Shown here: positions 26,001 through 49,422 of the stretch, piece after piece
Layout of the letters: each line of letters opens with the position of its first letter
Numbering within the stretch: the stretch's first letter is position 1
Translations under genes and position numbers: made by a program
The notes under the pieces: model-generated
What the model saw: only the letters and a program-made list of their open reading frames with translations
What the model was told of the DNA's origin: nothing
Database searches by the model: none
Assembly: GCF_019599295.1 (NCBI RefSeq)
Contig: NZ_JAIEWN010000001.1
Location: forward strand, 93,312-142,809
Direction: 5' to 3'
Length of the DNA stretch: 49,498 bases
From: Oscillochloris sp. ZM17-4
GTDB lineage: Bacteria; Chloroflexota; Chloroflexia; Chloroflexales; Chloroflexaceae

Positions 26001-26259
26001 CGATGTAGGTGTCGGCGCCCAGGTCGGTGAAGAGGTAGTAGCCGCCGCTGGCCGTGGTGACGGTCAGGATGGCGTCGGCGGTGGTCACGCCGGCGGTGCC
26101 GTCCACATCGTCGGGGGTGCCGTCGTCGTTGCTGTCGCGGTAGAGCCGCACGGTCAGGCCGTCGATGCCGCTCTCACCCGCGTCGATGAGGCCGTCGTTG
26201 TTCAGGTCGTCCCAGACCCGGTTGCCCAGGCTGAGCGGCTGGTAGAAGCCGAAGTCCAC
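20038..26259 (-). CDS. C-terminal part of giant SdrD-B repeat protein (frame-shifted)
   Basis: The last 2,073 residues of the giant secreted protein. The apparent start is a GTG inside a repeat (VDFGFYQP), with no ribosome-binding site and no signal peptide, so it is not an independent gene. It contains about 14 SdrD-B-like repeats. The last one ends near 20395, then a C-terminal fibronectin-like domain follows (AITLQSFTLERQRSGNLLRWETGAE, AGFEIYRS, YSWLDSS) and the terminal motif RIYMPLVVR. The repeat consensus is LGNxVWDDLNxDGxxDxGExGIxGVTVxLY, then xPGDYxVxF and DSDxD. If the frame is truly broken, this part is untranslated. If the break is an assembly or sequencing error, it is the C-terminal third of one protein. 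Confidence 0.85.
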   Translation of the reverse strand: MDFGFYQPLSLGNRVWDDLNNDGLIDAGESGIDGLTVRLYRDSNDDGTPDDVDGTAGVTTADAILTVTTASGGYYLFTDLGADTYIVEVDTPAGMRSSTGQSLPTPYEPAPDPDTGGALAPDSDDNGTTSGAVVRSAPVTLSLGAEPTGEPATLGFTETADDANANYTVDFGFYTALSLGNRVWEDRNNNGIIDDGASPGIDGVDVRLYRDNDGDGQPDDVNGGGVDTTDAIASTTTAGGGYYRFTNLSAGGYIVEIAPAASYRSSTGTTLPWPYEPAPDPDTGLDGTVGTSDDDADSDDNGTASGAVIRSATVTLSVGGEPTGETDTVGGDATADDNSNLTVDFGLYQPVSLGDLVFIDRDNNGTFDGSDSPLQGAAVDLFLADGTTQARASDGTPVATITTPANGLYLFSNLPAGDYVVRVTPPAGYRSSDDIASSASPNNNSNNDDNGIGDSVTTPVSSNPITLSSGQEINDGDSDPNSNPSLDFGFYQPLSLGDLVFIDRDNNGTFDGTDSPLAGASVDLFFDANGNGTLEDNSGSGGVDETIATATQTTAADGLYLFTNLKPGGYIVRVTPPAGYSSSDDLTDTPNPNSNTNDDDNGIGVGATASSNLITLSSGEEPDGAPDHNSNLTLDFGFHQPASLGDFVWHDQNANGVQDAGEPGIDGVTVTLQYAGPDGAFGTADDNLSAATTTTAGGGAYSFTGLIPGFYRVQFSLPAGFDKASPTGKGTDTTDDSDADPTTLRTAATDLASGEIDPTWDAGFYSLVRLGNQVWDDLNNDGTFDSLTESGISGVTVELSGTNGLGDTVTLTTTTNISGTYSFDSLIPGEYVVALPASNFTGAGALAATATMPAYVSSTGTNGSATGDYEGTALADPDGDIDSDDSGNTDGSGNVASLPVTLTSQSEPDIGVDTDDTNGNLTLDFGVFRPLSLGNLVWDDLNNDGQFDSGTESGINGVTVDLYLDNGDGSYGAGDTFVISDTTKLGGVYGFTKLIPGDYIVVIPASNFATGGALSASGAMPAYISSSGTNGSLTGAYEPAPDPDADQDNHDDGSLTGGDVVSMPITLDLDSEPDSGVDGDDKNGNQTVDFGFFKPARLGNFVWDDLNGNGVQDAGESGVNGVTVTLYDASNSQVATTTTAGGGLYSFDNLAAGDYRVVFSGLPPSYVFSPTGQGTSATDSDASPADGGTATITLSAGQTDLDWDAGIYHTLSLGNLVWDDLNNDGQFDSATESGINGVTVELRRASDNSLVGTTTTAGGGLYQFSGLAQGDYIVVLPASNFSGVLSGYRSSTGAHSLTAGPSEPAPDPDDPTGAPAANDKNNDDNGSLIGGSIQSAPVSLSALGEPDVADDGDDTNGNQTVDFGLFKPASIGDRVWEDADGNGLQDTGELGVSGVIVTLYDAGADGIPGGGDDLLVDSTPTDGSGIYGFSDLPPASYYLVFDKPTGYLFTRRDAGGDDAIDSDADRTSGETIATTLTSGESDDSWDAGINQLASLGDTVWEDMNHNGVQDAGEPGVPGVTVTLYNTATGQVGTPQITDADGFYQFIGLPPDRYYLVFSGLPAGYSFTLQSQGGNSSKDSDADPASGRTSDIDLLSSQDDPTWDAGIYTTASMGDRVWNDLDANGVQDAGEVGVNDVTVTLYQADGTLVSSSTTATVGAEDGIYSFSGLTPGDYYVVFSNLPAGYIFSPADRGTDDSVDSDADRAIGQSATFALASGANDLSWDAGIYLPASLGDFIWDDANANGVQDSGELGVSSVTMRLIQGGAVISTTTTASDGSYHFRELGAGDYQIEVVRPTGRQISPQLQGGDTATDSDIDRASMQSGVVSLTPGEVNDSLDGGIYQLASVGNHVWEDSNHDGIFGAGEAGIPGVTVELYRSDGSLVASAVTDSTGAFIFIDLEPGDYYIQFYPPSGWLISPQDQGGDNSIDSDANPNSGKTKVFTLGIGVQDLTWWAGMSRPPTAITLQSFTLERQRSGNLLRWETGAEINSAGFEIYRSATGSRADAEQVSGPLILSSGVGGGGARYSWLDSSADPQVGYSYWLVEVEIGGARHEYELNQPALQQEYRIYMPLVVR

Positions 26260-35200: not shown

Positions 35201-37150
35201 GCCGAAGAGGCCGATGTCCCAGCTCGGGTCATTCTCGCCCGGGTCGAGGGTGGTGGTCGCGGTGCGCCGGGTGGCGGTGTCGGCGTCGCTGTCCTTGGTG
35301 TCGTCGGTGCCGATGTTCTGTGGGCTGACGGTGTAGCCGCTCGGGATGGTGCTGAAGACCACGTAGTAGTCGCCGGGGGGCAGGCCGCTGAAGCCATAGA
35401 TGCCGTCGATGCCAAGGACATTGGCCGTGGTGGTGGTGCCCACCAGGGTGCCGTCGGCCCGGTAGAGCTTCGCGGTCACGCCATTGATGCCGGGCTCGAG
35501 GGCGTCCTGCACGCCGTCGCGGTTCTGGTCGTCCCAGGCCCGGTCGCCGATGCTGGCCAGGGTGGCCACCAGGCCGGCGTCCCAGCTCAGGTCGGCGTCG
35601 CCGTCGGCCAGGGTGATCAGGGTCGTCTCGCCAATCGTCGGGCCGGGGGTCGGGTCGGCGTCGGAGTCGAGCTGCGCGTTGCCGCCGAGGTTGCGACCAG
35701 TGAAGCTGTTGCCGGCCGGCAGGTTGCTGAAGCGCACCCGGTAGTCACCGGCGCTCAGCTCGGAGAAGCCGTAGCGGCCGGTCGAGTCGGTGGTGGTCGT
35801 CTTCAGGACAGCGCCGCCCGCGTCGAGCAGTTCGACTGTCACGCCGGGCACTGCGGGCTCGCCGCTGTCCTGGATGCCGTCGCCGTTCGTGTCGAACCAG
35901 ACGAAGTTGCCCAGCGAGGCTCCGCCGATCATGCCGAAGTCGAGGGTCTGGTTGCCGTTGCTGCCGTCGCCGTCGATCAGCGCGCTCGGCTCGCCGCCGG
36001 CGCTCAGGGTGATCGCCTGGCTGACGATCTGGCCGCTGGACGCGTCTCCATTATCGTCATTATCGATATTGCTGTCCGGGTCGGGCGTTGGCTCATTGCC
36101 GGTGCTGGTGCGCAGGCCGTAGAGCGCGCCGCCGGGGGCGAAGTTGCTCGCGTCGATCGTGACGATATAGTCGCCCGCCACCAGATTGCTGAACTGGTAC
36201 CAGCCCGGCTCGCCCAGGTGGGTGCTGGTGGTGGTGCTGCGCAGGTTCGTGCCGGCGCTGGTGGAGAGGGTCAGGCGCACCCCGTCGATGCCATACTCGC
36301 CGTCGGCCGGGTCGTAGCGCCCGTTGTTGTTCAGGTCGCGCCAGACCAGGTTGCCCAGGGTGAGGGTGTCAGACGGCAGGGTCAGGCCAGCGTCGCGGGT
36401 CGGGTCGTACTGGTTCGCAAGAAGGGTGAAGGTCGATGTCTTGCCGGTGGCCGGGTTAGCGTCGCTGTCCTGCGGGTTGGTGCCGCTTCCCTGCGTGGTG
36501 AACCCGGTGAAGCCGGCTGGCTTAATGAACTCGACATAATAGTCGCCGGGCGTCAGCTTGTCGAAGAGGTAGTAGCCGGGCAGGCCGAAGGGGTCGTTGG
36601 CAGTGAAGGTTGTGGCGACGAAGGTGTCGCCCGCGGTATACAGGTTCACCGTCACGCCATTCACGCCATCATCGGCGGACTCATCCTGGATGCCGTTCGC
36701 ATTGCGGTCGATCCAGACATAGTTGCCCACGGCGGTGCTGGTGGTCAGGCCGGCGTCCCAGGTGGTATCGATCTCGCCGTCGATAAGGTTTGTGACGGGG
36801 GTGTAGCCGGTGGCCGGGTCGATGTCAGAGTCGATAGCGTCATCGCCGCCGACATCCTTCGTGGTGACACCGTAGCCGAGGGGCGGCGTGATGCGGGCGT
36901 AGTAGTCGCCGGGGGGCATGATGCTGGCGTAGCGCGGGTCGGCGCTCGGGTACGAGGAGAAGAGGTAGTAGCCGGGGTTGCCGGCGTCGTCCGGCCCGCT
37001 GATGGTCGTATCCACTAGCGTATCGCCAGCGCTCTGGCCGGGGGTGCCGTCATTGTCGTGGAAGAGCTCGATCCTGGCGCCGTTCACGCCGGTTTCGCCC
37101 GCCGTCTGGAGGCCGTCCTTATTCTGGTCGAGCCAGACATAGTTACCATA
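20395..37150 (-). repeat. Array of about 40 SdrD-B-like domain repeats
   Basis: Tandem in-frame units of roughly 105-150 residues, each opening LGNxVWxD or IGDxVWxD with a DxNxDG calcium-loop motif. By my count there are 26 before the frameshift (the last partial) and 14 after. Two kinds occur. Short units end WDAG(I/L)Y. Long units contain YEPAPDPDT and DDNGT and end DFGFY. The nucleotide sequence is diverged between units but several neighbours are nearly identical, a setting prone to recombination and misassembly. Confidence 0.9.
26250..26310 (-). other. Frameshift or deletion splitting the giant gene
   Basis: On the minus strand the upstream frame runs YEPAPDPDT VATDDAQR then a stop (26288). 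The downstream frame reads TLSDSARDNNANYTVDFGFY one base out of register. In the other long repeats about 45-50 residues separate PDPDT from NANYTVDFG, while here only about 17 remain. So sequence is missing and the length change is not a multiple of three. Confidence 0.85.
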
Positions 37151-39703
37151 GGCCGGCGGCTTCGGCTGCTCACGCTCGATGCCGACGCGGGGCGGCTCGG
37201 GGGCCAGCAGGAACTCGGCCGCGCCGACGGCGCGGGCGCGGTAGCCGAAGGAGTTCCAGGCGATCTTCCCGGCAGTGACGGTCTCGGTATAGGGCGCTCG
37301 CATATGCACCGTGACCGTGACCGAGTCATCGGGCTGGAGCACCAGGCCACCGAAGTTGATCTTAAAGGATTGCACCGTGGTGATGTCGGTCGGCGGCGCA
37401 CTACTCCATATCGGCGCATCGCAGCCGGGGGACTCGTTGTCTGGGTCAATCCCGAGGTCGGGCACGCGGCAGGGGTTGTTCTGGGTGCTGTAGAAGACGC
37501 TCGCGCCCGAGGGCACCGTGATCGGCTCGACCAGGAAGGGCCGCCACTCGGTGCCGCGCGGGGTGGTGGACTGCTTCACGCCCACGTCGCCGACCCAGGG
37601 CAGGATGTCGAGCAGGGTCAGCTCGCTGATCGGGATCGTCCCGGTGTTGGTGATCGTCAGCTGGTAGTCGGCGCTGCCGCCGGGCACCGTGTAGCCGTGA
37701 TCAGGATCGTGCGTCCAGACGGTGTCGAGCTGGCCGAGCACCTCTTTAAGCGAGCCGCTGTTGGCCGCCGCCGCCAGGGTGACGCTAGAGATCGTCGAGC
37801 TACAGATCTGCTCCTGAGTGTTGCCGTCATTGTCATAGTCGAGCAGGTCGGCGCTGCTGCTTGAGCAGCTGTCCATCAGGATGTCGCTCGGCTGGTTGTC
37901 CCACCCGGAGAGATAGCCCGTGTTGCTCAGCGAGCCAGAGGCGGTATAGGGCGCGATGCGGGCCTGAAACTGAATCGTGATCGTCTCGCCGGGGGCTAGG
38001 TTGTAGGCGCTCGTGTCGATCCATCGCCAGCGCAGCAGCGGCTTGCCGCCGCTGTAGTTCGGCACGATGTCGAAGACCGGGTCGGGCGCGCCGGGCGGCT
38101 TTGCCGTGATCTGCTGGCTGCCATCCACATAGAGCAGGTCGCTCATCAGCAGATCCACGATCTGCGGGTTCACCAGAGGTGTGGTCAGGCTCTGGAAGCT
38201 ATTATTTTTGAGGGTGAGGGTATAGGTGACGGTGTCGCCGGCGTTGACGATGCCTGGGTTAACCGCCTTGGCCACGCTCGGCCGTGCGCCAGGCGTGTAG
38301 ACCACCACACGGGTGCGGGCGGTGCTCTGCCTGAGGATCTTGTGCCCGTTGAAGCTGAACTCAGCGTCGGCGGTGTTGACGATGATCTGGTTGACGGGCG
38401 CGCTGATCACCTTGGCCATAAAGCCGTTGCCGCTCACGGCGAAGCCGTAGGGCAGCTGGTCGAGGTAGGTGTAGCGCAGGGCGGTGATCCGTCCACCGGG
38501 GTCGAAGGAGGTGCAGCCGCCGCCGGTGTTCGGGGCGATATTCACGCAGCCGGCACCGGTGAAGGGCGAGCCGGGGATGCTTGTCCAGGTCGCGTTCAGG
38601 TTGGTCTGATACTCGATCCGGAGGTTCAGCGTGTTGGTCAGGTTATGGGCCGCCGCGATGATCCGCGTTACCTCAAGCTCGACCGGGATGGTATCGGTGA
38701 AGACATGCGAGTCAAGCGGGCTGGTGCCACTGTTGCTTGAGCTAAAGCTGTAGGTGACGGTGTCGCCGACCTCGGCGTTGGCTGGCCCGCTCTTGCCAAA
38801 GCCGGGGTTCGGCGTGGGCGGCTGGATGAGGCGCACGTCGAAGCCGCTCAGGCTCATGGTCGCCCCGCCCAGGAAGGTCACATCGGCGGCGAGGTCGTTG
38901 CGGATCTCGTCGCCGATATTGAAGGCGCCGGTCGGGAACTGGACGGTGACAGTGTGGGTCAGGCAGGACTGGCCGGCGCTGACCAGGATGCTGGCGGCGG
39001 GCCAGGTGACCGTCCCGGCGTTGTGGGTGCCGCCGTCGGTGGCGCTGACGAAGGTCGATCCGAGCGGCAGGGTGTCGGTCATCACCACGCTGGTGATGTC
39101 GACGGCGCCGATCGAGGAGGGCACGCAGACCTGAACCTGGTAGACGGTGGGCAGGTCGAGCACGCCGCCAGAGACAAAGCGCTTGGTGGCGCGGGCGCTG
39201 GGCTGAGCGACGGCGGTGATCGGCAGCGGCTTCGAGATGACGGGCGGCGCGCTTGATCCGCTCATCTCGGCGCGTAGGATGGCGATCGCCCCGTCGGGCG
39301 TGCTGCCCTTGGCGAAGCGCACCATCAGCGTAAAGGTGCCGGCGTCGCCGGGGGCGATGTCTGCGTTGAAGGTCCATGTTGCCGTTGATGTCGCCTCATC
39401 GTAGGCAGTAGTTGTCTTGTTGCTGGGGTCGAGCGCCTGGACATCGCCGATGGCGCGGGCCAGTTCGGGCGGGATGACGCTGGAGATCACCGCATCGCTG
39501 CAGGCCACATTGAAGACCGCCGAGCAGCTGTAGTCCACCTTGATCACCGCCCATTCGCCGCTGTTGACGATCGGCGTCGTGGTGCTCAGGCGCACCTCAT
39601 AGCTGCTGCTGGCGGCGAGGACTGGCATCGCCTGCATGAGGCTGATAAGGACGAGGATGAGTAGCGTGCCGAGCCTTAGTGCGTTGTTGATGCGGCGGTG
39701 CAT
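26288..39703 (-). CDS. Giant secreted SdrD-B/DUF11 repeat protein, N-terminal part
   Basis: A 4,471-residue piece starting at ATG 39703, chosen because AAGGA lies eight bases upstream and a signal peptide follows at once (MHRRINNALRLGTLLILVLI, cut after VLAA). About 850 residues of non-repeat region contain DUF11-like beta domains (NAGDTVTYTLTLKN, EVGDTVTYSFSSSN). From about 37150 it continues into roughly 26 SdrD-B-like repeats. Such repeats form Ca-stabilised rods in surface adhesins of Gram-positive bacteria, so this is inferred to be a surface or sheath fibre. No LPXTG sorting motif is visible. The frame ends at 26288 in a long repeat where homologous units continue, and the rest lies at 20038-26259. 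Its promoter was not found. Confidence 0.88.
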   Translation of the reverse strand: MHRRINNALRLGTLLILVLISLMQAMPVLAASSSYEVRLSTTTPIVNSGEWAVIKVDYSCSAVFNVACSDAVISSVIPPELARAIGDVQALDPSNKTTTAYDEATSTATWTFNADIAPGDAGTFTLMVRFAKGSTPDGAIAILRAEMSGSSAPPVISKPLPITAVAQPSARATKRFVSGGVLDLPTVYQVQVCVPSSIGAVDITSVVMTDTLPLGSTFVSATDGGTHNAGTVTWPAASILVSAGQSCLTHTVTVQFPTGAFNIGDEIRNDLAADVTFLGGATMSLSGFDVRLIQPPTPNPGFGKSGPANAEVGDTVTYSFSSSNSGTSPLDSHVFTDTIPVELEVTRIIAAAHNLTNTLNLRIEYQTNLNATWTSIPGSPFTGAGCVNIAPNTGGGCTSFDPGGRITALRYTYLDQLPYGFAVSGNGFMAKVISAPVNQIIVNTADAEFSFNGHKILRQSTARTRVVVYTPGARPSVAKAVNPGIVNAGDTVTYTLTLKNNSFQSLTTPLVNPQIVDLLMSDLLYVDGSQQITAKPPGAPDPVFDIVPNYSGGKPLLRWRWIDTSAYNLAPGETITIQFQARIAPYTASGSLSNTGYLSGWDNQPSDILMDSCSSSSADLLDYDNDGNTQEQICSSTISSVTLAAAANSGSLKEVLGQLDTVWTHDPDHGYTVPGGSADYQLTITNTGTIPISELTLLDILPWVGDVGVKQSTTPRGTEWRPFLVEPITVPSGASVFYSTQNNPCRVPDLGIDPDNESPGCDAPIWSSAPPTDITTVQSFKINFGGLVLQPDDSVTVTVHMRAPYTETVTAGKIAWNSFGYRARAVGAAEFLLAPEPPRVGIEREQPKPPAYGNYVWLDQNKDGLQTAGETGVNGARIELFHDNDGTPGQSAGDTLVDTTISGPDDAGNPGYYLFSSYPSADPRYASIMPPGDYYARITPPLGYGVTTKDVGGDDAIDSDIDPATGYTPVTNLIDGEIDTTWDAGLTTSTAVGNYVWIDRNANGIQDESADDGVNGVTVNLYTAGDTFVATTFTANDPFGLPGYYLFDKLTPGDYYVEFIKPAGFTGFTTQGSGTNPQDSDANPATGKTSTFTLLANQYDPTRDAGLTLPSDTLTLGNLVWRDLNNNGRYDPADGEYGIDGVRLTLSTSAGTNLRSTTTSTHLGEPGWYQFSNLVAGDYIVTIDASNFAPGGALYGLRTSTGNEPTPDPDSNIDNDDNGDASSGQIVSQAITLSAGGEPSALIDGDGSNGNQTLDFGMIGGASLGNFVWFDTNGDGIQDSGEPAVPGVTVELLDAGGAVLKTTTTDSTGRYGFSELSAGDYRVRFSNLPAGNSFTGRNLGGNAQLDSDADPTPGPTIGETTLITLADGDADLSWDAGLVATLASIGDRAWDDQNRDGVQDALEPGINGVTAKLYRADGTLVGTTTTANVLGIDGIYGFSGLPPGDYYVVFSTIPSGYTVSPQNIGTDDTKDSDADTATRRTATTTLDPGENDPSWDIGLFGYASIGDFVWNDKNRDGVQDVGEPGVSGVAVRLYRQGESTPVASTTTDSSGYYHFTNLVPDLNYYLEFSMPAGYSTTVRDAGGNTPASDLIDSDPDLSTYQTIPTPLIIGENDTSWDFGIYPTASIGDKAWLDLNANGIQDVGESNGVAGVQVILHNASGSEIDSTVTNTSGNYSFSGLAPGDYWLSFVLPDTYLLSPQDQGGDDAKDSDVAPGTLRTIQTTLDIGEIDMSWDVGVYQPSKLGDRVWHDLNANGVQDPGELGVSGVAVALLDSAGNPVDGDPLTTGIQAITTTTTISGTYLFSDLAPGDYIVEFAMPTGYTKVSPKNSAAADSDNDSDVVSATMRTPLISLPSSTSDLSWDMGVYNLAALGDRVWLDTNVNGIQDDGATGVNGVTVTLYSSAGITVTSTTTDATGIYTFTNLTPGNYYLIFSDLPADHSFTQQNQGSDDTLDSDANPISGVTGLIGLASGQTDKTWDAGIFPKIDLGDRVWIDLNANGIQDPNEDWIDANNNSVQDPGELNGVPGVKVELYQGASLVDYTYTDLDGNYLFEDLFPGTYRIVFSNIPAGYLRSPQDQGGDDAKDSDADASFTITDFTISASDMTRDMGLYKPASLGDYVWHDQNANGVQDAGEPGIDGATVTLQYAGPDGVFGTADDNLSAATTTTAGGGAYSFTGLTPGFYRVQFALPAGFDKASAANQGADDTVDSDADPTTLRTTVTELTSGENDPTWDAGFYQFASLGDLVWEDMNGNGVQDSGEPGINGVGVALDGTDGAGNVVSLTTTTDSNGAYSFTGLTPGSYHVTFTPPAGYEITLKDLASGATADEIDSDADRTTGATIDTTLVSGEDDPTWDAGLYRPATIGDRVWEDINGDGVQEAGSPTFPSVTVTLQYAGPDGTFGTADDNLTAATTTTDASGNYLFTGRIPGTYKVTFDRPSGYAFTQGDVSGNTLDSTDSDVATGTAATRTTIATALVSNEDDRTWDAGLYQLLSLGNRVWDDLNNDGLLNNGEAGIDGVTVRLYRDSNGNGTIDAGAESTAVATTTTSNGGAYLFSGLTQGKYLVEIVAPAGYISSTGINGSASGPYEPASPSAVDSDDNGTTSGAVIRSAVLDLLPNATPLAEADTTMPTATTNPARDENSDLTLDFGLFKPAQLGNFVWFDRDANGVQNGGDETGIISVTVTLLDGSGAQVDGDPITIGTQAITTTTNASGIYAFTNIISGTYRVGFDLPTGYEFSPIGKGTATTDSDADPATGKTAALTLTAGQSDQTWDTGLYQRVRLGNQVWDDLNNDGEFDSGTESGIVGVTVELRGTNGLGDTVTLTTTTAISGTYLFDNLIPGTYVVTLPASNFSGAGKLAASGNLPAYVSSTGTVGSATGPYEGAALADPDNNIDNNDSGTTDGSGNVASLPITLRSQDEPALAADTDDTNGNLTVDFGVFRPLSLGDLVWNDTDNDGLFNNGEVGIDGVTVELYRDTDGNNAYTAGTDTFVVSDTTKLGGLYLFDKLIPGDYVVVIPASNFTGTGALRYFRSSDGGVLPDSANDPDDNVNDDDNGVGPSAGVATGSVSSGAVTLKLDDEPINDGDTNSNSNLSVDFGFYSLGLGNLVWSDANNDGLKDTAEVGLDDLTVSLYYDADDSGTIEPAEAAAATTITTSNGGHYFFGGLRDGGHYQIRVGTGGPDWVSSTGGANGMPTGTYEPGTTVTGNASDIDNDDNGTQVAGNTVTSTIFSVTLGNQPTGETDTGMPSGATNRATDESTNLSVDFGLFNHARMGDWVWIDTNGNGVQDGGETNGVGGVTVKLYQGATLISTTTTLASGFYGFSYLNTGTYSVTFDLSTIPAHYGISPQNSGADDAKDSDADEATGTTATFTLAAGDNDTSWDMGIYPLLSLGNLIWDDLNDSGTVDAGEPGFDGVTVELYRDTDNSGSYDVLTDTLVLTTTTDTSGNYLFTDLQQGDYLVVIPASNFASGKPLYLYRSSTGSNGAATHAYEPAPDPDTGLDGVIGGGDDDADNDDNGTDDPAGYAVTKAISLNPSYEPINDGDTDPNTNLTLDLGFFQHLSLGNLVWDDVNNNGLFDVGENGINGVTVDLYLDNGDGSYGAGDTFVVSDTTKLGGIYSFTNLIPGDYIAVIPASNFTGAGALAASGGLSAYTSSTGTNGSAGGDYEPAPDPDTGLDGAVGGGDDDANSDDNGSLLGSGDIATRAITLASGTEPASGVDGDGTNGNQTLDFGLFRPASIGDFVWEDSNGNGVQDAGEPGIDGVTVTLYQGATPISTTTTLPSGFYQFTDLIPNDYSVTVTAPAGYVFTAQDQGADDTADSDADSSGVMISTTLIAGESDMTWDAGLYKPVSVGNQVWYDTNNNRNVDPGEVGINGVRVELFFDANDNGTIEDNSGSGGVDETQAVAVTTTTTAAGTYLFTERTNASGTGLSPQRLLNPGTYVVGIPASELDPTTGALRGLFSSGTTMGADGTTSEIAPADPDTGGATAPDGDDNGALQASGFYSGGVLALPVTLSPGTEPVGENPDVDPNPAVRPDANDNQTVDFGFYTASLGNLVWDDLNNDGAWVAGELGIANVTVRLYSSNGNEIPIGPDGRLGTADDALGGMTTNSSGNYAFSRLPEGSYQVQIDVPAGYVSTRDTADSANPSANTDNDDNGVGSDQTATTATSNVFTLVPGAEPTVNNATGSSDDPTIDFGIVRYYSLGNRVWDDRNNNGTQNAGENGISGVTVRLLQSDGVNPAVRIDGSNAPVQTSDASGFYRFDLLPAGDYIVEVIASNFTGANALAGYRSSTSSGSPLPYEPAPDPDSDATDEDDNGTVSGAVVRSAAVTLGEGTGTAEPTSEIGGGPAVTTGEAPDAQSNRTVDFGFYPSFSLGNRVWNDLDNSGTINAADGASPGIAGVAVRLLDSAGNPATDATGATVADQTTTADGYYLFTDLFAGDYIVEVVPPAGYRSSTGNFSAYEPAPDPDTVATDDAQR

Positions 39704-39909
39704 GACGTGATTCCTTGGTGTATGGCGGGTTTGAAGACGTGGGCACTGGTATGCCATTCAAGCCATAGAGATAATCAATGCATATGGATGACCGACTTGC
39801 GCCTACCTGTCTTGCGAGAAGTTAGCACAATAAGACGTGATGATGTCGCAATTAGTCACAGGGTTGCTCATCCCAAGTGAGCTGCTACCAACAAGGGAGG
39901 CAGAAACTT

Positions 39910-40491: not shown

Positions 40492-40717
40492 CCCAGCCAT
40501 CAAGCCTTTATATTGCATCTGCCCTGACGTAGCGCTCTAGCGACTGCGCACCCCTTCCAGTGGGGGGCACAGGCGTGATCGCACTGGCTTTGTGTACCCA
40601 TCGACGATGACTGTGCTGCCTGGAGATGTCGAGCTTTCGTGGTGCGCGCAGCCTGCATCTCCTCTCCACAACCCCTGTGGTGTCGCCTCCGTGCTCTGTA
40701 GAAATGAGGGTGTCCTG

Positions 40718-42070
40718 ATGGCTTTCGTGCGGTTTGTCGTCAAGACGATCCGGCTCTCGATCATGCGTATCGGTGCCGGTTGGATGTTCGCGCTGCTCAC
40801 CTTTAACTTCAACCGTGTCTCGATCTCAGATCTCGGGGCGATCGCGGTGATCGTCACGTCGCTGATCGGCCTGCACCACTTTATCTCGTTCTTTCAGGTC
40901 TACTGGGGGCGCTTCTCCGACCGTACGCCCATCCTCGGCTACCGGCGCACGCCCTACATCATGCTCAGCAGCCTCGTGGCGAGCCTGGTCTTCCTCGCCC
41001 TTCCCTCGGTGGCGATCGGCCTGGGCGCGCGCTCGATAACGGCGACACTAGAGGCCTTCGTCCTGATCGTGATCTTCGGTGCCAGCATGGCGATGAACGG
41101 CAGCGCCTCGAACGCGATGGTCGCCGAGGTGACGACGCAGAAGGAGCGCGGCGCGGTGATCGCGGTGGTCTGGGCGACCATTATTATCAGCGGCATTATC
41201 TCGGCGGCGGTGGCCGGCAGCATTATGCCGAGCTACGACCCGGCGAAGATGCAGCAGCTCTATAACCTGACCCCAATCGTGGTGCTTGTCACGGCGCTGA
41301 TTGGGGTGGTTGGGATGGAGCGGCGCATGAGCACGGCCGAGGTGGCGGAGCTGCGGGCCGAGTCGCCGGGGGCGATCGAGAGCCCGCTGACCTCCTTTCG
41401 CGTGGCGGCGGGCCTGGTACGCGACAATGTGCAGGTGCGAGCATTCTTCCTCTTTGTGCTGCTGGCGATCATGGGTATCTTCTTGCAGGACGCTATCTTG
41501 GAGCCCTTCGGCGCCGAGGTGTTCGGCATGAACCAGGCCACCACCGCCCACTTCCAGCAGGCCTGGGGCGGCGGCGCGCTGCTGGGTATGATCGGCATCG
41601 GCGTGCTCAGCAGCCTGCTGCCGATCTCGAAGAAGCTGATCGCCACCATCGGCGGCCTTGGCGTCGCTGGCGGCCTCGTGATGATCGTCGCCTCGTCGCT
41701 TATCTCGCGGCAGTCGCTGATCGAGCCCGGCCTGATGCTGATGGGTCTGGGGATCGGCCTGTTCGATGTGGGCGCTCTCGCGATGATGATGGAGATGACG
41801 GTCGATGGGCAGACCGGCCTGTACATGGGGCTGTGGGGCATGGCCCAAGGGCTGGGCAACGGCTTCGCCAATATCGCGAGCGGCGCACTGCACACCGGCC
41901 TGATCGAGACGGGCCTGCTCAGCCCAACAATGGCCTACGCCACGATCTTTGGCTTTGAGGCGCTGGTGATGGTAGCTGCGGTGGGTATCCTGCGCGGCAT
42001 CAGCGTCCAGGAGTTTAAGGGCCTCACCAGCAAGGATATCGGCACGGTTCTGGCGATGGATGCGGCCTGA
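40718..42070 (+). CDS. PucC/BCD-family major facilitator (bacteriochlorophyll carrier type)
   Basis: A 450-residue membrane protein of the BCD/PucC branch of the major facilitator superfamily, implicated in delivering (bacterio)chlorophyll to light-harvesting complexes. Signs are the N-terminal TIRLSIMRIGAGWMFALLTFNFNRVSI, the VYWGRFSDRTPILGYRRTPYIM loop and GLGIGLFDVGALAMMMEMT, with about 12 hydrophobic helices. ATG 40718 follows GAGGG; the frame upstream to 40592 lacks protein-like sequence. It heads the photosynthesis operon. Which pigment or complex it serves cannot be told; Chloroflexales have several paralogues. A 38-base palindrome separates it from bchF. Confidence 0.93.
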   Translation: MAFVRFVVKTIRLSIMRIGAGWMFALLTFNFNRVSISDLGAIAVIVTSLIGLHHFISFFQVYWGRFSDRTPILGYRRTPYIMLSSLVASLVFLALPSVAIGLGARSITATLEAFVLIVIFGASMAMNGSASNAMVAEVTTQKERGAVIAVVWATIIISGIISAAVAGSIMPSYDPAKMQQLYNLTPIVVLVTALIGVVGMERRMSTAEVAELRAESPGAIESPLTSFRVAAGLVRDNVQVRAFFLFVLLAIMGIFLQDAILEPFGAEVFGMNQATTAHFQQAWGGGALLGMIGIGVLSSLLPISKKLIATIGGLGVAGGLVMIVASSLISRQSLIEPGLMLMGLGIGLFDVGALAMMMEMTVDGQTGLYMGLWGMAQGLGNGFANIASGALHTGLIETGLLSPTMAYATIFGFEALVMVAAVGILRGISVQEFKGLTSKDIGTVLAMDAA

Positions 42071-42133: not shown

Positions 42134-42613
42134 ATGTACACACCTGATCAGCTTGCCCGTCGTGAGCGCTCGAAGTGGACGCGTGTGCAGATCATTCTGG
42201 CGCCTATCCAGTTTGTTGCCTTCCTGATCAGCTTCGGGCTCGTTATCCACTACCTTGTCACCGGCCAGGGCTACCTCGCGGCGACGATCAGCATCTGGGT
42301 CAAGATCGCACTGATCTGGGCGCTGACGATCACCGGGATGCTCTGGGAGTACGACATGTACGACCACTACTTTATGGCGAAGGAGTTCTTCTGGGAGGAT
42401 CTGGGCAATCTGATCGCCATCCTGACCCATAACGCCTACTTTGTGGCCAAGTGGGTCGGCGCTGATGAGCGCACGGTGATGTGGGTGATGGTGTTCGCCT
42501 ATATCACCTACCTGTTCAATGCTGCGCAGTTTATTGTTCGCGGCATCCGCTCGGCTCGCCAGCGCCGCGCCCTCCAGAGCGCCGGCACACAGGCTACGAC
42601 TGTCCGTAGCTAA
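42134..42613 (+). CDS. bchF: 3-vinyl bacteriochlorophyllide hydratase BchF
   Basis: A 159-residue integral membrane enzyme that adds water to the C3 vinyl group of (bacterio)chlorophyllide a, giving the hydroxyethyl group later oxidised by BchC. The N-terminus MYTPDQLARRERSKWTRVQIILAPIQF and the core IWVKIALIWALTITGMLWEYDMYDHYF, FFWEDLGNLIAILTHNAYFVA match BchF as I know it from purple bacteria, with about four transmembrane helices. Length is normal. The related BchV acts on BChl c precursors in chlorosome-bearing phototrophs, and bchF versus bchV cannot be separated with certainty by eye. It sits directly before bchC, as expected for consecutive pathway steps. The Shine-Dalgarno is weak (GGGA). 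Confidence 0.92.
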   Translation: MYTPDQLARRERSKWTRVQIILAPIQFVAFLISFGLVIHYLVTGQGYLAATISIWVKIALIWALTITGMLWEYDMYDHYFMAKEFFWEDLGNLIAILTHNAYFVAKWVGADERTVMWVMVFAYITYLFNAAQFIVRGIRSARQRRALQSAGTQATTVRS

Positions 42614-42667: not shown

Positions 42668-43654
42668 ATGTCGATTAAGTCTCGAGCTGTTGTTATTCCG
42701 CGTCGCAATGTGGTGGAGATCCGCACGGTTCAGGTCACTGAGCCGCGGGCCGGCGATGTCCTGATCCGCACGGCATACACCTCGATCAGCGCCGGAACCG
42801 AGCGCATGCTGCTCGATGGGCGCCTCCCCCAGCCCCAGCTGCTCTTCCCGGTGGTCCCCGGCTATGAGACGGTCGGCCAGGTGGTACAGACGGGCAAGAA
42901 GGCGCCGAAGGATCTACTCGGGCAGTGGGTCTATGTCGGCGGCGCCCGCTGCTTCCAGGGGGTCAACCCAGCCTGGGGCGGCCAGAGCGAGTTTATTAGC
43001 GCCGAGGCCGATCGAGTGGTGCCGCTGAAGACGATCGACCCGGCCACCGGCGTGATCCTGGCCCTCGCCGCCACCGCCCTCCACGGGATCAATGTCGCGC
43101 ATATCCGCCCATCAGACCGGGTGCTCGTCCTCGGCCAGGGGATTGTCGGCCAGGTCGCCGCCCGCCTGGCGAAGCTCGCCGGCGCATCCTATGTGGCGGT
43201 GGCCGACCGGGTCGCTGTGCGCCTGGAGAAGTCGAAGGCCGACCAGGTGGTCGATATCAACCGCGAGTCGCTCGATGAGGCGATCAGCGACGCGAACATC
43301 AATGTGATCGTCGAGGCCACCGGCTCGATGACTGCCCTGGCCGGCGCCCTGCCGCTGCTGGCGAACCACGGGCGTGTTCTGCTGCTCGGCTACTACGACA
43401 CGATTAATGTCCCCTACGCCCCGCTGTTTATGCGCGAGGCCCAGCTGCTGATCGCCCGCGAGTGGCAGTTCGGCCCCGATGGCGACCTGCCTCGCGCGCG
43501 CGACCTGATCGCCTCCGGCGAGCTTGATGTGAGCGGGCTGCTGACGCACCATGTGCCTCTGGATCGCATTCAGGCCGCGTATCGCCTGGCCTTCGAAGAC
43601 CCGGCGTGCCTCAAGGTGGTGGTGGAGTGGCCGAAGGATGATGTTGAATGTTGA
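42668..43654 (+). CDS. bchC: 3-hydroxyethyl bacteriochlorophyllide a dehydrogenase BchC
   Basis: A 328-residue zinc-less medium-chain dehydrogenase that oxidises the C3 hydroxyethyl group to acetyl in bacteriochlorophyll a synthesis. Support comes from TSISAGTERMLLDGRLP, LFPVVPGYETVGQVV, the Rossmann motif VLVLGQGIVGQVAARLAKLAGA (glycine-rich loop), NVIVEATGSM and VLLLGYY, all typical of BchC. It follows bchF and precedes bchX, matching pathway order. The last residues (DDVEC) and the stop at 43652-43654 are encoded by the start of the GAATGTT heptamer array, so the repeat has set the end of this gene. No strong Shine-Dalgarno is seen before the ATG. Confidence 0.94.
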   Translation: MSIKSRAVVIPRRNVVEIRTVQVTEPRAGDVLIRTAYTSISAGTERMLLDGRLPQPQLLFPVVPGYETVGQVVQTGKKAPKDLLGQWVYVGGARCFQGVNPAWGGQSEFISAEADRVVPLKTIDPATGVILALAATALHGINVAHIRPSDRVLVLGQGIVGQVAARLAKLAGASYVAVADRVAVRLEKSKADQVVDINRESLDEAISDANINVIVEATGSMTALAGALPLLANHGRVLLLGYYDTINVPYAPLFMREAQLLIAREWQFGPDGDLPRARDLIASGELDVSGLLTHHVPLDRIQAAYRLAFEDPACLKVVVEWPKDDVEC

Positions 43655-43701
43655 ATGTTGAATGTTGAATGTTATTCAACATTCAACATTCAGCATTCAG
43701 C
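43646..43701. repeat. Heptamer hairpin between bchC and bchX (GAATGTT x4, mirrored x4)
   Basis: Four GAATGTT units (43646-43673) face ATTCAAC twice and ATTCAGC twice (43674-43701). Bases 43653-43670 pair perfectly with 43674-43691, and the outer units keep pairing in RNA through G-U wobble. The heptamer is the same as in the element at 2848-2923. It contains the bchC stop and lies just before the bchX Shine-Dalgarno. Confidence 0.93.
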
Positions 43702-43722
43702 ATTCGCTCCGAAGGAGCGCAT

Positions 43723-44922
43723 ATGCCTGCGAACCCGAAGCAGTCCGCCACAAGTACGGCCCGTATGCTCGCTGTCTATGGCAAGGGCGGGATGGGGAAG
43801 TCGTTCTTTACCACCAATCTGGTGAGTAAGCTGGCCCTGCTTGATAATCGGGTGATGCAGCTTGGCTGCGACCCGAAGCACGATAGCTGCAACGCCCTGT
43901 TCGGTGGGGCGAGCCTGCCCACCCTCGGCGATGTCTGGCGCGAGTATAAGGAGTCCGGCCGCGAGGACGCGCTCCAGGCCCAGCACGTGATCTTTAAGAC
44001 CCAGATCATGGAGGGCGCGGCCACAGTCTACGGCTGTGAGATCGGCGGCCCCGAGGTTGGCCGCGGCTGCGGCGGGCGCGGGATCACCTTCGGCTTCGAT
44101 ACGCTTGAGAAGTTTGGCATGAGCCAGTGGGCCCTCGACTATGTGGTGATGGACTTCCTGGGCGATGTGGTCTGCGGCGGCTTCGCCACGCCGCTCTCGC
44201 GCTCGCTGGCCGAGGAGGTGATCATCCTCTGCGGCAACGACCGCCAGAGCCTCTACGCAGCCAATAATATCGCTAGCGCGGCCAAGTACTTCGCCAGCAT
44301 GGGCGGGAAGACCCGCCTGATCGGCCTGATCGTCAACCGCGATGACGGCAGCGGTGTGGCCGACCGCTTCGCGGAGCAGATCAACCTGCCGGTGCTGGCC
44401 CGCATCCCGCTCGACCGCAAGATTCGTGAGCTGGCCGACGCCTGCCAACTGGCTCTGGTGGACCCCGGCTTCGATGCGATCTTCGACGGCCTCGCCCGCC
44501 AGATCATCACCCGTACCACCCCCCACGTCGATATGGCCGACGTACACCCACTGGAGTACAAGGAGTTCCTGAACGTCTTTGGCGCCGAGGAGCCCGATAT
44601 TGTGCCCAATGGGGCCACGGCCGATGAGCTCTTCGGCGGCAAGAAGGTCAAGCAGATCCCGACCTTCGAGCTCGGGCTGATGCAGCAGGCCGTCGGTGAG
44701 AAGCCCAACATGGACTCACCCACGAAGCTTGTGGTAACTCGCCTGCTCAAGGATCTGGGCATGTATGTGACTGAGGCGAACCAGGATCCGAAGAAGGGCA
44801 TGACCCTGACGGTCGATGGGCACACGACGATCTGTTTCGGCGATGATCATGAGCTTGATAGTAAGATGGCCATCCTCGCGGCCCTTCAGAAGTCCGGCGA
44901 GCCCTATCGCTACGTCGAGTGA
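43723..44922 (+). CDS. bchX: Chlorophyllide reductase iron protein subunit BchX, with C-terminal extension
   Basis: A 399-residue nitrogenase-like Fe protein that passes electrons with ATP hydrolysis to BchY-BchZ for reduction of the chlorin C7=C8 bond. The P-loop is YGKGGMGKS (19-27). The [4Fe-4S] ligands are Cys116 (GRGCGGRG) and Cys151 (LGDVVCGGF), and GGPEVGRGCGG together with GNDRQSLYAANN identify BchX rather than BchL. AAGGAG lies five bases before the ATG. The usual ending (ADELFGGKKVKQIPTFEL) is reached near residue 318, after which about 80 residues continue (KLVVTRLLKDLGMYVTEANQ, TLTVDGHTTICFGDDHELDS). bchY and bchZ are not in the window. Confidence 0.94.
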   Translation: MPANPKQSATSTARMLAVYGKGGMGKSFFTTNLVSKLALLDNRVMQLGCDPKHDSCNALFGGASLPTLGDVWREYKESGREDALQAQHVIFKTQIMEGAATVYGCEIGGPEVGRGCGGRGITFGFDTLEKFGMSQWALDYVVMDFLGDVVCGGFATPLSRSLAEEVIILCGNDRQSLYAANNIASAAKYFASMGGKTRLIGLIVNRDDGSGVADRFAEQINLPVLARIPLDRKIRELADACQLALVDPGFDAIFDGLARQIITRTTPHVDMADVHPLEYKEFLNVFGAEEPDIVPNGATADELFGGKKVKQIPTFELGLMQQAVGEKPNMDSPTKLVVTRLLKDLGMYVTEANQDPKKGMTLTVDGHTTICFGDDHELDSKMAILAALQKSGEPYRYVE

Positions 44923-44925
44923 GCG

Positions 44926-45099
44926 ATGGCGCTCCAGACACGACCGAAGATAGCAGAGATAGAGTATGTATGCGCCCCTTGGCACCTACGCCTGCGCTGG
45001 TGGTTTGCCGCCCGGCTCTGGTCGTTTGGCTATAGCTTTGCGGAGGCCGCCGGGGGTGAGGCGCCGGATCTGGCGAATCCCCTGTGGCGGCGCTCGTAG
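44926..45099 (+). CDS. Small Trp/Arg-rich protein, 57 aa, in the bch operon
   Basis: A 57-residue frame starting three bases after the bchX stop (GAGTGAGCGATGG), so it would be translated by coupling or from the weak GAGTGA. It begins MALQTRPKIAEIEYVCAPWH, continues RLRWWFAARLWSFGYSFAEA and ends NPLWRRS, with five Trp and seven Arg. The core could be an amphipathic or membrane-associating helix. No family is recognised. Codon use is acceptable and no other frame in this 276-base gap looks coding. It may bind pigment or an enzyme complex, but that is speculation from context. A chance ORF is possible. Confidence 0.5.
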   Translation: MALQTRPKIAEIEYVCAPWHLRLRWWFAARLWSFGYSFAEAAGGEAPDLANPLWRRS

Positions 45100-45198
45100 G
45101 GGTGTCGCAGTGCAGGGTGGCTGCGCTTTTCTGACCCTGATCTCCACAAGCGGGCAGGGGAGAACCTCCCTTGCCTCGCAGCAAAAAATACGGTATTT

Positions 45199-45942
45199 AT
45201 GGAATCACTGCCCGATCTGACCTACCTCAACCATCTGCTGGTGGAGAAGATGCGGGTGAAGCGTCGGCCAGTGGCGGTGACCTACTGCTCCGATGGCCCG
45301 CCGCCTGGCTACGAGCCGGTTGATATTGTGGCCTGTGGGATAGTGCGGGCCGCCGAGCAGGGCCGCCGGATCTACGTTGATCGCCATCACCACGACTGCT
45401 GGGTCGGCCAGTACCACCTTGGCTGGAACGCGCAGCCGGGCGAGTATATCACCGAGGGTGGCTACCTGACGGATGCGCAAGGGTTCTACACGCCCGAGGC
45501 GGCCCGCTGTAATAAGCAGCAGAGCCACTCGCTGCCCGAGGGGATGATCACGGCGTTGGCCGCCGCCCCGCTCGATGAGGTGCCCGATGGCGTGCCGGTC
45601 GATCTGCTGATCTGTGTGGTGGACCCGCAGCGGGCGATGCAGATCGCGGGGGCGGCCAGCGTGCGGATCGGCCAGTTCCCGCTCGGTGAGCTTGGCGCGA
45701 GCGCCTGCTCCTCGATTTTTGCTGCGCCATACATCACAAAGAACTCTGTTTTTGCTATCGGCGATGGTGGCGGCCGGATGCACAACCGCCTTGATGCGGG
45801 CGAGATGTTCGTCTCGATCCCGCGCGATCACCTCCGATATGTGGTAGAATTGGTCGAGAACTTTCATATAGATCCACAAAAAATGCGTGAAGTGATAATG
45901 CCTTCCTACGCAACTAAAGCGAAGGATGGCCGCCAGGAGTAA
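45199..45942 (+). CDS. DUF169-family protein in the bch operon
   Basis: A 247-residue protein of the DUF169 (COG2043-like) family, whose function is unknown to me. Visible family features are the N-terminal KRRPVAVTYC, a metal-binding-looking HHHDCW (63-68) followed by GQYHLGW, ARCNKQQSHSLPEG, VDLLICVVDPQRAMQIAGA and SACSSIFAAPYI. Cysteines are at 30, 46, 67, 104, 139 and 170. There is no signal or membrane segment. Placement between bchX and bchI suggests a role in BChl synthesis or its metal or Fe-S supply, an inference. The ATG lacks a clear Shine-Dalgarno; an in-frame ATG at residue 18 is possible. The next gene starts four bases after its stop. Confidence 0.88.
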   Translation: MESLPDLTYLNHLLVEKMRVKRRPVAVTYCSDGPPPGYEPVDIVACGIVRAAEQGRRIYVDRHHHDCWVGQYHLGWNAQPGEYITEGGYLTDAQGFYTPEAARCNKQQSHSLPEGMITALAAAPLDEVPDGVPVDLLICVVDPQRAMQIAGAASVRIGQFPLGELGASACSSIFAAPYITKNSVFAIGDGGGRMHNRLDAGEMFVSIPRDHLRYVVELVENFHIDPQKMREVIMPSYATKAKDGRQE

Positions 45943-45945
45943 GCT

Positions 45946-46146
45946 ATGCCAAGCGGTCTCGGCGAAGCAACACAGATGATCGGTCCGTTCGCCCCGGCGC
46001 TACTGTGCTGGGCCTGCCTGATCCTGACAGTGCTAGGCCTTGCTCTCACCTTCCTCTGGACAAATGTTACGGCATTTGCTCGACGCACCAAGGCGAACGA
46101 GAATAAGCCCGCTGCAGGCTCGATGATGGATCGGTCGCGTAGGTAA
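45946..46146 (+). CDS. Small single-span membrane protein, 66 aa, in the bch operon
   Basis: A 66-residue protein with one predicted transmembrane helix (about 15-40, ALLCWACLILTVLGLALTFLW) and a basic C-terminal tail (ARRTKANENK, DRSRR) that would face the cytoplasm. AGGAG overlapping the DUF169 stop lies six bases before its ATG, so it is coupled to that gene. No family is recognised. It has no His in the helix, so it does not look like a light-harvesting polypeptide of the LH1/LH2 type, where a buried His binds BChl. A scaffold or anchor for a partner enzyme is possible. Confidence 0.75.
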   Translation: MPSGLGEATQMIGPFAPALLCWACLILTVLGLALTFLWTNVTAFARRTKANENKPAAGSMMDRSRR

Positions 46147-46285: not shown

Positions 46286-47389
46286 ATGTCGAAAGAGATC
46301 CTTGAGACGCCGCCCCAGGCGTCGCAGAATGGCACCGCACCCACCCCGAACGCCGCCGTCCCCCCGTACCCGTTTACCGCGATCGTCGGCCAGGCCGAGC
46401 TGAAGCTGGCGCTGATGCTCTGCGTCGTGAGCCCGACGATCGGCGGCGTGATGGTCATGGGCCATCGCGGCACCGCCAAGAGCACCGCCGTGCGCGCCCT
46501 CGCCGCCATGCTCCCGCCGATCAAGGCGGTGGCTGGCTGCTCCTACTCGTGCTCCCCTGATCGCACGGCCGGCCTATGTGACCGCTGTATGAATCACGGC
46601 GATGGCAAGCGGGTCGCCCATAAGCCCTCCGCCGTCACCATCCCGGTGCCAGTGGTGGACTTGCCGCTCGGCGCCACCGAGGATCGGGTCTGCGGCACCC
46701 TCGACATCGAGCGCGCCCTGACCCAGGGCGTCCAGGCCTTCGCCCCGGGCCTGCTGGCCCGCGCCAACCGCGGCTTCCTCTACATCGATGAGGTGAACCT
46801 GCTGGAAGACCACCTGGTGGACGTGCTGCTCGATGTGGCGGCCAGCGGCACCAACGTGGTCGAGCGCGAGGGTATCAGCATCCGCCACCCAGCCCGCTTC
46901 GTGCTGGTGGGCAGCGGCAACCCCGAGGAGGGCGACCTGCGCCCGCAGCTGCTCGATCGCTTCGGCCTCCACGCCCGCATCATCACGATCACCGATGTGG
47001 AGGAGCGTGTGGAGATCGTGCGCCGCCGCCGCGCCTACGACGCCGACCCCTTCGCCTTCGCTGCGGCCTGGGAGAAGGAGACGGCCAAGCTCCAGCGGAA
47101 GATCAAGGGCGCCCAGAAGCGCCTGCCCGATGTGGTGCTGCCCGACCCGATCCTCTACAAGATCGCCGAGCTCTGCGTGAAGCTTGAGATCGATGGCCAC
47201 CGCGGCGAGCTGACCCTCAGCCGGACCGCCACCTCGCTGGCCGCCCTGGAGGGCCACTCCGAGGTGAAGCTTGAGGACGTGCGCCGGATCGCCATCCTCT
47301 CCCTGCGCCATCGCCTGCGGAAGGATCCGCTGGAGACTCAGGACGACGCGGTGCGGATCGAGCGGGTTGTGGATGAGGTTCTGGCATAG
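46286..47389 (+). CDS. bchI: Magnesium chelatase ATPase subunit I
   Basis: A 367-residue AAA+ ATPase subunit that drives Mg2+ insertion into protoporphyrin IX together with BchD and BchH, the first step of BChl synthesis. Walker A is GHRGTAKS (59-66), Walker B is FLYIDEVNLL (about 164-172), sensor 1 is LVGSGNPEEGDLRPQLLDRFGL, and the insertion TEDRVCGTLDIE is typical. Between residues 85 and 101 four Cys (85, 89, 98, 101; CSYSC...LCDRC) form a possible zinc knot, which I recall in some Chloroflexota BchI but not in purple bacterial BchI. The start MSKEILET has only a weak Shine-Dalgarno. bchD follows after 80 bases. Confidence 0.96.
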   Translation: MSKEILETPPQASQNGTAPTPNAAVPPYPFTAIVGQAELKLALMLCVVSPTIGGVMVMGHRGTAKSTAVRALAAMLPPIKAVAGCSYSCSPDRTAGLCDRCMNHGDGKRVAHKPSAVTIPVPVVDLPLGATEDRVCGTLDIERALTQGVQAFAPGLLARANRGFLYIDEVNLLEDHLVDVLLDVAASGTNVVEREGISIRHPARFVLVGSGNPEEGDLRPQLLDRFGLHARIITITDVEERVEIVRRRRAYDADPFAFAAAWEKETAKLQRKIKGAQKRLPDVVLPDPILYKIAELCVKLEIDGHRGELTLSRTATSLAALEGHSEVKLEDVRRIAILSLRHRLRKDPLETQDDAVRIERVVDEVLA

Positions 47390-47469: not shown

Positions 47470-49422
47470 ATGACCACACTTCCCTTCTCCGCCCTGGTGG
47501 GTCTCGATACGGCCCGCCAGGCTCTTCTGCTTCTGGCGGTAGACCCCGGGCTCGGCGGCACGGTGATCGCCGCCGGCGTGGGCACTGGCAAGAGCACCCT
47601 GGCCCGCAGCTTCGCCCGGCTCGCGGGGGCAGCGACCCTCGACACCCCGCCGCCCTTCGTTGAGCTTCCGGTTGGCGTCACTGAGGATCGCCTGCTGGGC
47701 GGCCTGGATCTGGAGGCGACCCTCTCGCGCGGCGAGCGCGTCCACCGCAGCGGGCTGCTGGCCCGCGCCAATGGTGGCATCCTCTACGCCGATGGGGTGA
47801 ATCTGCTGGACGACAGCACGATCAACCACCTGCTCTCATCCCTCGACAGCGGCGTCGTGCGCGTCGAGCGCGAGGGGCTGAGCATGGTCGAGCTGTCGCG
47901 CTTCGCCCTGATCGCCACCTATGACCCGGCCGAGGGGCCGCCGCGCCGCCACCTGCTCGACCGGGTCGGCCTGATCGTGGCGCCGATCGGCCAGTCGCCG
48001 GCCCGCGCCCGCGCCGAGGTGGTGCGGCGCAACCTGGACGCCGACGCTATCGCGCGCATGCGGGTGCGCGCCCGGGCGGCCGCCGAGGCTGATAATCCCT
48101 ACGACGATGAGGAGGCCCTGCTGGCGGCCACGGTGCTGGCGGCCCGCGAGGCCTTGCCGACGGTGCAGATCAGCGACGCCCAGGTGCTCCAGATCAGCCA
48201 GTCGGCGCTGGCCCTGGGGGTCGAGGGCCACCGGGCCGATATCTTCGCCGTGCGCGCGGCTCTGGCCTCGGCGGCCCTGGCCGGGCGCGACGAGGTGGGC
48301 GACGAGGATATGGAGCGGGCGGTGCGCTTCGTGCTTGTGCCGCGGGCCACCCGCGCGCCCGAGTTCGAGGACGAGGCCCAGCCCGAGCAGCCGCAGCAGC
48401 CCCCGCCGCAGCAGGAGGAGCAGCCCCCGCCCCCGCGCGACGAGGAGCAGCAGGACGATGAGGAGCAGGAGGAGCAGCCCCCGCCGCCTCCCGAGGAGGA
48501 TCTGAGCGTCGAGGATCTGGTGCTGTCAGCTCTGGACGCGGAGGTGCCGCCTGATGTGCTTACCACGCCCTTCAGCATCAGGCGCGGCGGGCGCAGCGGC
48601 TCGCGCGGCAACACCTCGGGCAATCGGGGCCGCCACATCCGCTCGATACCCGGCCTGCCTGGCCAGGGCCGCCTCGATGTCGTGGCCACGCTGCGCGCCG
48701 CCGCCCCCTGGCAGAGCTCCCGCAAGGCTGAGGACGTCCGACGCGTGGAGTCGGGGCGCCGCGCGCTCAGCCACGCCAGGGCCAGCATCCGCCTGCGCGC
48801 CGACGATCTGCACATTAAGAAGTTCCGCAGCAAGGCCGGCACGCTCTTCTGCTTTGTGGTCGACGCCAGCGGCTCGATGGCCCTGCACCGTATGCGTCAG
48901 GCCAAGGGCGCGGTGAACGCCCTGCTCCAGCAGGCCTACGTCCACCGTGACCACGTGGCCCTCCTGGCCTTCCGCGGCGACCGCGCCGACCTGCTGCTGC
49001 CGCCCTCGCAGAGCGTGGAGCTGGCGAAGCGGGCGCTCGATGTGCTGCCCACCGGCGGCGGCACGCCGCTGGCCGCCGCGCTCCTGTCGGCCTACCAGGT
49101 GGCTGAGCAGGCCCGCGCCCGCGGCATCCACCGCACCACCCTCGTGCTGATCACCGACGGCCGCCCGAACGTGCCGCTCCAGCCCGAGCCCGGCCAGAGC
49201 AAGGATGAGCGCATGGCGCAGGCTCGCACGGAGGTGCAGACCCTCTGCGGCCGCCTGAAGGCCGCCGGGATCGGCGCGGTGGTGATCGACACCCAGCGCA
49301 GCTATGTCTCGCGGGGCGAGGCCCAGCAGCTCGCAGCCTGGATCGGCGGGCGCTACGTCTACCTGCCCCAGGGCCGCGCCGACCAGATCGCGGGCGCGGT
49401 GATCGAGGCGAGCGAGGGCTGA
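47470..49422 (+). CDS. bchD: Magnesium chelatase subunit D
   Basis: A 650-residue subunit that forms the two-ring AAA+ motor with BchI for Mg chelation. The N-terminal AAA+ domain has Walker A GVGTGKST (36-43), which looks intact, while the Walker B region is ILYADGVNLL with Gly where BchI has the catalytic Glu (YIDE), so ATP hydrolysis may be impaired though binding possible. A Pro/Gln/Glu-rich acidic linker (about 299-344) leads to the von Willebrand A domain with MIDAS residues DASGS (465-469), Thr532 (GGGTPL) and Asp563 (ITDGRPN). The start MTTLPFSAL lies near the end of a hairpin. The bchH partner is not in the window. Confidence 0.95.
   Translation: MTTLPFSALVGLDTARQALLLLAVDPGLGGTVIAAGVGTGKSTLARSFARLAGAATLDTPPPFVELPVGVTEDRLLGGLDLEATLSRGERVHRSGLLARANGGILYADGVNLLDDSTINHLLSSLDSGVVRVEREGLSMVELSRFALIATYDPAEGPPRRHLLDRVGLIVAPIGQSPARARAEVVRRNLDADAIARMRVRARAAAEADNPYDDEEALLAATVLAAREALPTVQISDAQVLQISQSALALGVEGHRADIFAVRAALASAALAGRDEVGDEDMERAVRFVLVPRATRAPEFEDEAQPEQPQQPPPQQEEQPPPPRDEEQQDDEEQEEQPPPPPEEDLSVEDLVLSALDAEVPPDVLTTPFSIRRGGRSGSRGNTSGNRGRHIRSIPGLPGQGRLDVVATLRAAAPWQSSRKAEDVRRVESGRRALSHARASIRLRADDLHIKKFRSKAGTLFCFVVDASGSMALHRMRQAKGAVNALLQQAYVHRDHVALLAFRGDRADLLLPPSQSVELAKRALDVLPTGGGTPLAAALLSAYQVAEQARARGIHRTTLVLITDGRPNVPLQPEPGQSKDERMAQARTEVQTLCGRLKAAGIGAVVIDTQRSYVSRGEAQQLAAWIGGRYVYLPQGRADQIAGAVIEASEG

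Follow-up and report, generated by a model that had tools for sequence, protein, structure and literature searches.

A DUF169 gene and a homologue of a small reaction-centre subunit between bchX and bchI in the photosynthesis operon of Oscillochloris sp. ZM17-4

The window analysed here, the whole stretch of 49,498 nucleotides taken from the genome of Oscillochloris sp. ZM17-4, carries three small or little-studied genes between bchX and bchI, all on the plus strand. Upstream of them lie a gene for a PucC/LhaA-type transporter-like protein (40592-42070; PF03209, 226 bits), bchF (42134-42613; TIGR02020, 154 bits, plus PF07284), bchC (42668-43654; TIGR01202, 289.3 bits, slightly below the cut-off of 291.25), and bchX, encoding the iron protein of chlorophyllide a oxidoreductase (43723-44922; TIGR02016, 456.9 bits against a cut-off of 331.2). 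Downstream are the Mg-chelatase genes bchI (46286-47389; TIGR02030, 600.9 bits) and bchD (47470-49422; TIGR02031, 741.6 bits); bchF, bchX, bchI, and bchD all scored above the Pfam/NCBIfam cut-offs. The bchX ORF was listed from 43669, with 43723 as the likely true start, preceded by a good Shine-Dalgarno sequence. The three intervening genes are orf57, for a 57-AA Trp/Arg-rich protein (44926-45099), a gene for a 247-AA DUF169 protein (45199-45942; PF02596/COG2043), and a gene for a 66-AA protein with a single transmembrane helix (45946-46146), whose Shine-Dalgarno sequence AGGAG (45935-45939) lies within the last DUF169 codons. Their placement between the bchX stop at 44922 and the bchI start at 46286 was confirmed, and the preliminary description was also right that four bases or fewer separate orf57 from bchX and the 66-AA gene from DUF169, both gaps being 3 bp. 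These are two of the four junctions; the remaining gaps are 99 bp (orf57 to DUF169) and 139 bp (66-AA gene to bchI), and the reading of the three genes as members of the operon holds.

For comparison, bchX regions of relatives were fetched from the same family, the Chloroflexaceae, of which 41 genomes were counted. Orthologues of the ORFs were found by tblastn at the same place in these relatives, so that a check for homologues at bch loci returned presence rather than absence. Measured against the two nearest relatives, dN/dS was approximately 0.15-0.26 for orf57 and 0.16-0.28 for the 66-AA membrane protein, and the median pN/pS of DUF169 was 0.17. Since orthologues occupy the same position and synonymous change exceeds non-synonymous change in frame, the ORFs are not due to chance, and by these alignments all three genes evolve as coding sequence. 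They do not, however, form the single undescribed three-gene system that had been proposed, as their distributions differ: the 66-AA family profile had a match in 40/41 Chloroflexaceae genomes, orf57 was present in 25/41, and DUF169 in 12/41.

The 66-AA protein was matched over residues 1-63 by chain N of PDB entry 8ydm (phmmer, 8.3e-28), a reaction-centre structure of Chloroflexus aurantiacus in which this chain is labelled a hypothetical protein. The orthologue in the genome taken as C. aurantiacus J-10-fl is letter-identical to 8ydm chain N where aligned, and when the L subunit of the Oscillochloris genome was compared with the PDB, its best match was the reaction-centre L chain in the same entry. 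The window protein and chain N come from different species and share approximately 73% identity, gene position, and a single transmembrane helix (hydropathy 2.52 over 19 residues at position 19 in the 66-AA protein). An orthologue stands in the same place in most relatives compared, and outside the Chloroflexaceae the profile had next to no matches. By its homology to the solved chain, the 66-AA protein is a structural component of the reaction-centre complex with one helix, an added member of an already known kind of subunit. The match to 8ydm chain N excludes the suggestion that this protein anchors an enzyme. Of the roles proposed for the genes, one in bacteriochlorophyll synthesis does look apt for DUF169, which appears tied to bch genes as set out below.

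Outside the Chloroflexaceae, a small one-helix protein also comes after DUF169. In Roseiflexus the protein in this slot is chain Z of PDB entry 8hju (E 2.5e-38), annotated as 'reaction center small polypeptide', and cryo-EM of Roseiflexus castenholzii places protein Z between LH-alpha11 and RC-M (eLife 2023, PMC10516601). A JBC 2023 paper describes a Roseiflexus protein h (PMC10432797); because a chain sequence is common to both groups' entries, we infer that protein Z and protein h are the same protein. Like the 66-AA protein, protein Z/h is a small one-helix subunit encoded directly behind DUF169 and downstream of bchX, but the two share only about 23% identity over 31 residues and differ at the N-terminus. 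Comparison of the 66-AA family with the Roseiflexus set by hhalign gave E 2.8e-4 and a probability of 41%, with the helix aligned. The 66-AA profile retrieved the syntenic protein of genome G078 at 7.9e-4, yet also a non-syntenic match at 1.1e-3. When this profile was searched against the PDB, 8hju chain Z was absent from the matches listed, as was any direct link to Roseiflexus chains, so that the relationship rests on hhalign and synteny. With this moderate profile support, the 66-AA protein and protein Z are probably homologous, and synteny makes homology likelier than the score alone would. That the small subunits which cryo-EM revealed in Chloroflexus and in Roseiflexus occupy the same slot of a pigment operon points to one ancestral subunit, and the shared slot would also be a direct link between the supply of pigment and that of reaction centres.

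The orf57 product had no match among Pfam, NCBIfam, or PDB sequences, and was rejected as a chain of 8ydm or of any other solved structure on the same grounds. Where present in the Chloroflexaceae, its gene mostly lies right after bchX, and none was found in the order's other families. The proteins share a conserved core, APWHLRLRWW, and end in NPLWRR. Judged by these comparisons orf57 is a new, small, Chloroflexaceae-specific family; that it acts as a small helper at the membrane edge is a guess.

The DUF169 gene is the sole member of its family in this genome and scored 124.5 bits in Pfam against a curated cut-off of 27. In all 12 Chloroflexaceae genomes that carry it, DUF169 comes after bchX, separated from it by orf57 alone, and at the other Chloroflexota loci of the scan it stood directly behind bchX in 16/16. 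The scan of named genomes found DUF169 in Chloroflexus, Oscillochloris, Roseiflexus, Kouleothrix, and other Chloroflexota. In the Roseiflexaceae the gene is inside the BchXYZ operon, in a distant Chloroflexota genome (G337) it is downstream of bchH-C-X-Y-Z, and at the non-Chloroflexaceae loci of the scan long enough to reveal them bchY and bchZ follow downstream of it. Among 41 genomes from the order's other families, 17 had both DUF169 and bchF, two had bchF only, five DUF169 only, and 17 neither (Fisher p 2.5e-5, uncorrected for kinship). Both bchF-only genomes have a contig that stops before the relevant site, and of the five DUF169-only genomes two or more seem, from coordinates, to be fragmented MAGs (those behind L105 and L106) with contigs that show bchX beside DUF169. 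In one Roseiflexus-type MAG (G065; L177:5557-6287, also L121) DUF169 is broken into two frames, possibly by a frameshift or assembly error.

The phototroph DUF169 proteins form one clade (support 0.86), separate from the rest of PF02596 and with its own conserved R22, Y38, E53, N105, K106, and GDGGGR motif. Three proteobacterial MAGs carry DUF169 beside bchH (two) or pucC; in two of the three bchX was not detected. The proteobacterial copies branch from within Roseiflexaceae-type sequences, a placement that suggests acquisition by transfer. Basal to the clade is the DUF169 of G335, a genome from another group in the class taken as Ca. Chlorohelix allophototropha, where the gene adjoins what read as histidine-synthesis genes and not bchX or a bch operon. 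A sister clade (L155-L170) comes from proteobacterial genomes, many of 1.1-1.6 Mb, with UbiD or short-chain dehydrogenase neighbours in some of those examined, and the neighbours of non-phototroph DUF169 genes showed no shared theme. The phototroph branch was found almost only in the company of bacteriochlorophyll genes. The limited literature searched reported a function for no member of PF02596 and held no paper that links DUF169 to bacteriochlorophyll; within it, the linkage of the phototroph clade to the chlorophyllide oxidoreductase (COR) genes is undescribed.

For DUF169 an AlphaFold model with pLDDT 93 was used, an earlier one built from seven close sequences being poor and set aside. 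DUF169 had no significant relative among solved proteins by sequence or fold; its best structural match, at Z 4.3 to thiolases, may reflect merely a common arrangement, and kinship to any solved protein was rejected. The window protein shares the conserved cysteines of its family: C46, C67, and C170 are each present in 27/27 sequences of the phototroph clade and in 10/13, 11/13, and 13/13 of other DUF169s, and since non-phototroph members have them too they say nothing specific on chlorophyll. Pigment operons are known to hold small non-enzymatic genes, such as those for BchJ, PufQ, and other bch/puf accessory proteins, and the genes described here resemble these by description, with no family match to them in Pfam or NCBIfam.

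DUF169 is missing from 29/41 Chloroflexaceae, nearly all of which retain BchX. The DUF169-less genomes that were aligned still carry its last codons ahead of the 66-AA gene, as a remnant of 36-47 residues detectable by profile in five of them and as a shorter alignable stretch in others. The AGGAG that serves the 66-AA gene as ribosome-binding site is retained throughout the aligned genomes, including those without DUF169. Because these leftover 3' codons persist with their ribosome-binding site, the alignments mark DUF169 as ancestral and later lost, probably more than once, while the reaction-centre subunit stayed. With 29 of 41 genomes having lost it and nearly all of these keeping BchX, DUF169 is not essential to the pathway in general; it would be helpful, not indispensable. 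The position of the ribosome-binding site in the DUF169 3' end further implies that synthesis of pigment and of the reaction-centre subunit is likely to be coupled in translation.

We propose that the interval is a remnant of an old Chloroflexota phototrophy block, bchF-bchC-bchX-DUF169-[small reaction-centre subunit]-bchY-bchZ, which in the Chloroflexaceae version has bchI-bchD in place of bchYZ downstream and a short Trp-rich gene after bchX. DUF169 would most likely assist bacteriochlorophyll a synthesis as a soluble, cysteine-based accessory protein that works alongside chlorophyllide oxidoreductase (BchXYZ); it might, for instance, bind or shield the metal cluster of that enzyme or pass on a pigment intermediate. 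The 3' end of its gene, in carrying the ribosome-binding site of the subunit gene, would likely couple pigment and subunit synthesis in translation. Gene position makes the BchXYZ step the best guess for such a thiol- or metal-based protein. Against it, the proteobacterial copies adjoin bchH or pucC and two of those MAGs lack a detected bchX, and DUF169 may therefore have its partner at a different step; the Chlorohelix copy lies outside any bch operon; that BchX went undetected in a C. aurantiacus proteome (PMC9316378) also weighs against the account. On balance we lean towards the account as a whole. Its most specific form, in which phototroph DUF169 is an undescribed component of the bacteriochlorophyll a pathway, a cysteine-based partner of COR that binds metal or a tetrapyrrole, goes back to the common ancestor of the type-I and type-II phototrophs among the Chloroflexota, and has a gene that also sets translation of the reaction-centre subunit, is put forward tentatively.

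The tight coupling of DUF169 to the subunit gene, in the window and in relatives, would suit a factor that assembles the type-II reaction centre, or delivers pigment to it, in partnership with the adjacent small subunit. We think this unlikely, as 28/29 Chloroflexaceae without DUF169 keep the subunit and the gene is retained in the genome taken as Ca. Chlorohelix allophototropha, a phototroph that lacks pufLM and uses a type I reaction centre (PMC10972752); its presence there speaks for a role of DUF169 in making pigment and not in the type-II reaction centre. Alternatively, DUF169 might act at another step, at Mg chelatase or earlier, or in redox or oxygen control of the whole pathway, and stand beside bchX just for co-regulation. 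Its place next to bchH in two proteobacterial MAGs would fit, as would the occurrence of the aerobic cyclase AcsF in 12/12 Chloroflexaceae with DUF169 and 15/29 without (p 0.003, uncorrected), but we doubt this reading too: DUF169 adjoins bchX in all Chloroflexales loci read, and a Roseiflexaceae genus (g34) has DUF169 without AcsF, which breaks the correlation and led us to reject DUF169 as a partner of AcsF. That the three genes are passengers, independent of phototrophy and landed in the operon by chance, could draw on the dispensability of orf57 and DUF169 across the family but is very improbable given the gene order conserved between families, the co-occurrence with bch genes, and purifying selection; 8ydm contradicts it in the case of the 66-AA protein.

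To our knowledge, the bacteriochlorophyll a pathway is usually regarded as complete. A DUF169 clade that tracks bacteriochlorophyll a across the Chloroflexota, in the midst of the oxidoreductase genes, is a concrete and testable gap in it.

The window also holds features of other kinds. Between bchC and bchX (43642-43704), heptads of TTGAATG form a near-perfect 31-pair hairpin (-52 kcal/mol, z -9.4); the palindromic heptad array recurs at 2851-2920, and similar heptads occur ahead of bchX in a relative (G034, L060) and, in the Oscillochloris genome itself, close to the puf genes (L082). Directly after the hairpin, at 43705-43723, a GCTCC-GAA-GGAGC stem-loop contains the likely bchX Shine-Dalgarno sequence and could regulate bchX translation. 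On the minus strand, beside the photosynthesis operon (20038-39757), two giant genes encode proteins of 4489 and 2073 AA with 24 and 14 SdrD B-like repeats, respectively, which are probably cell-surface proteins.
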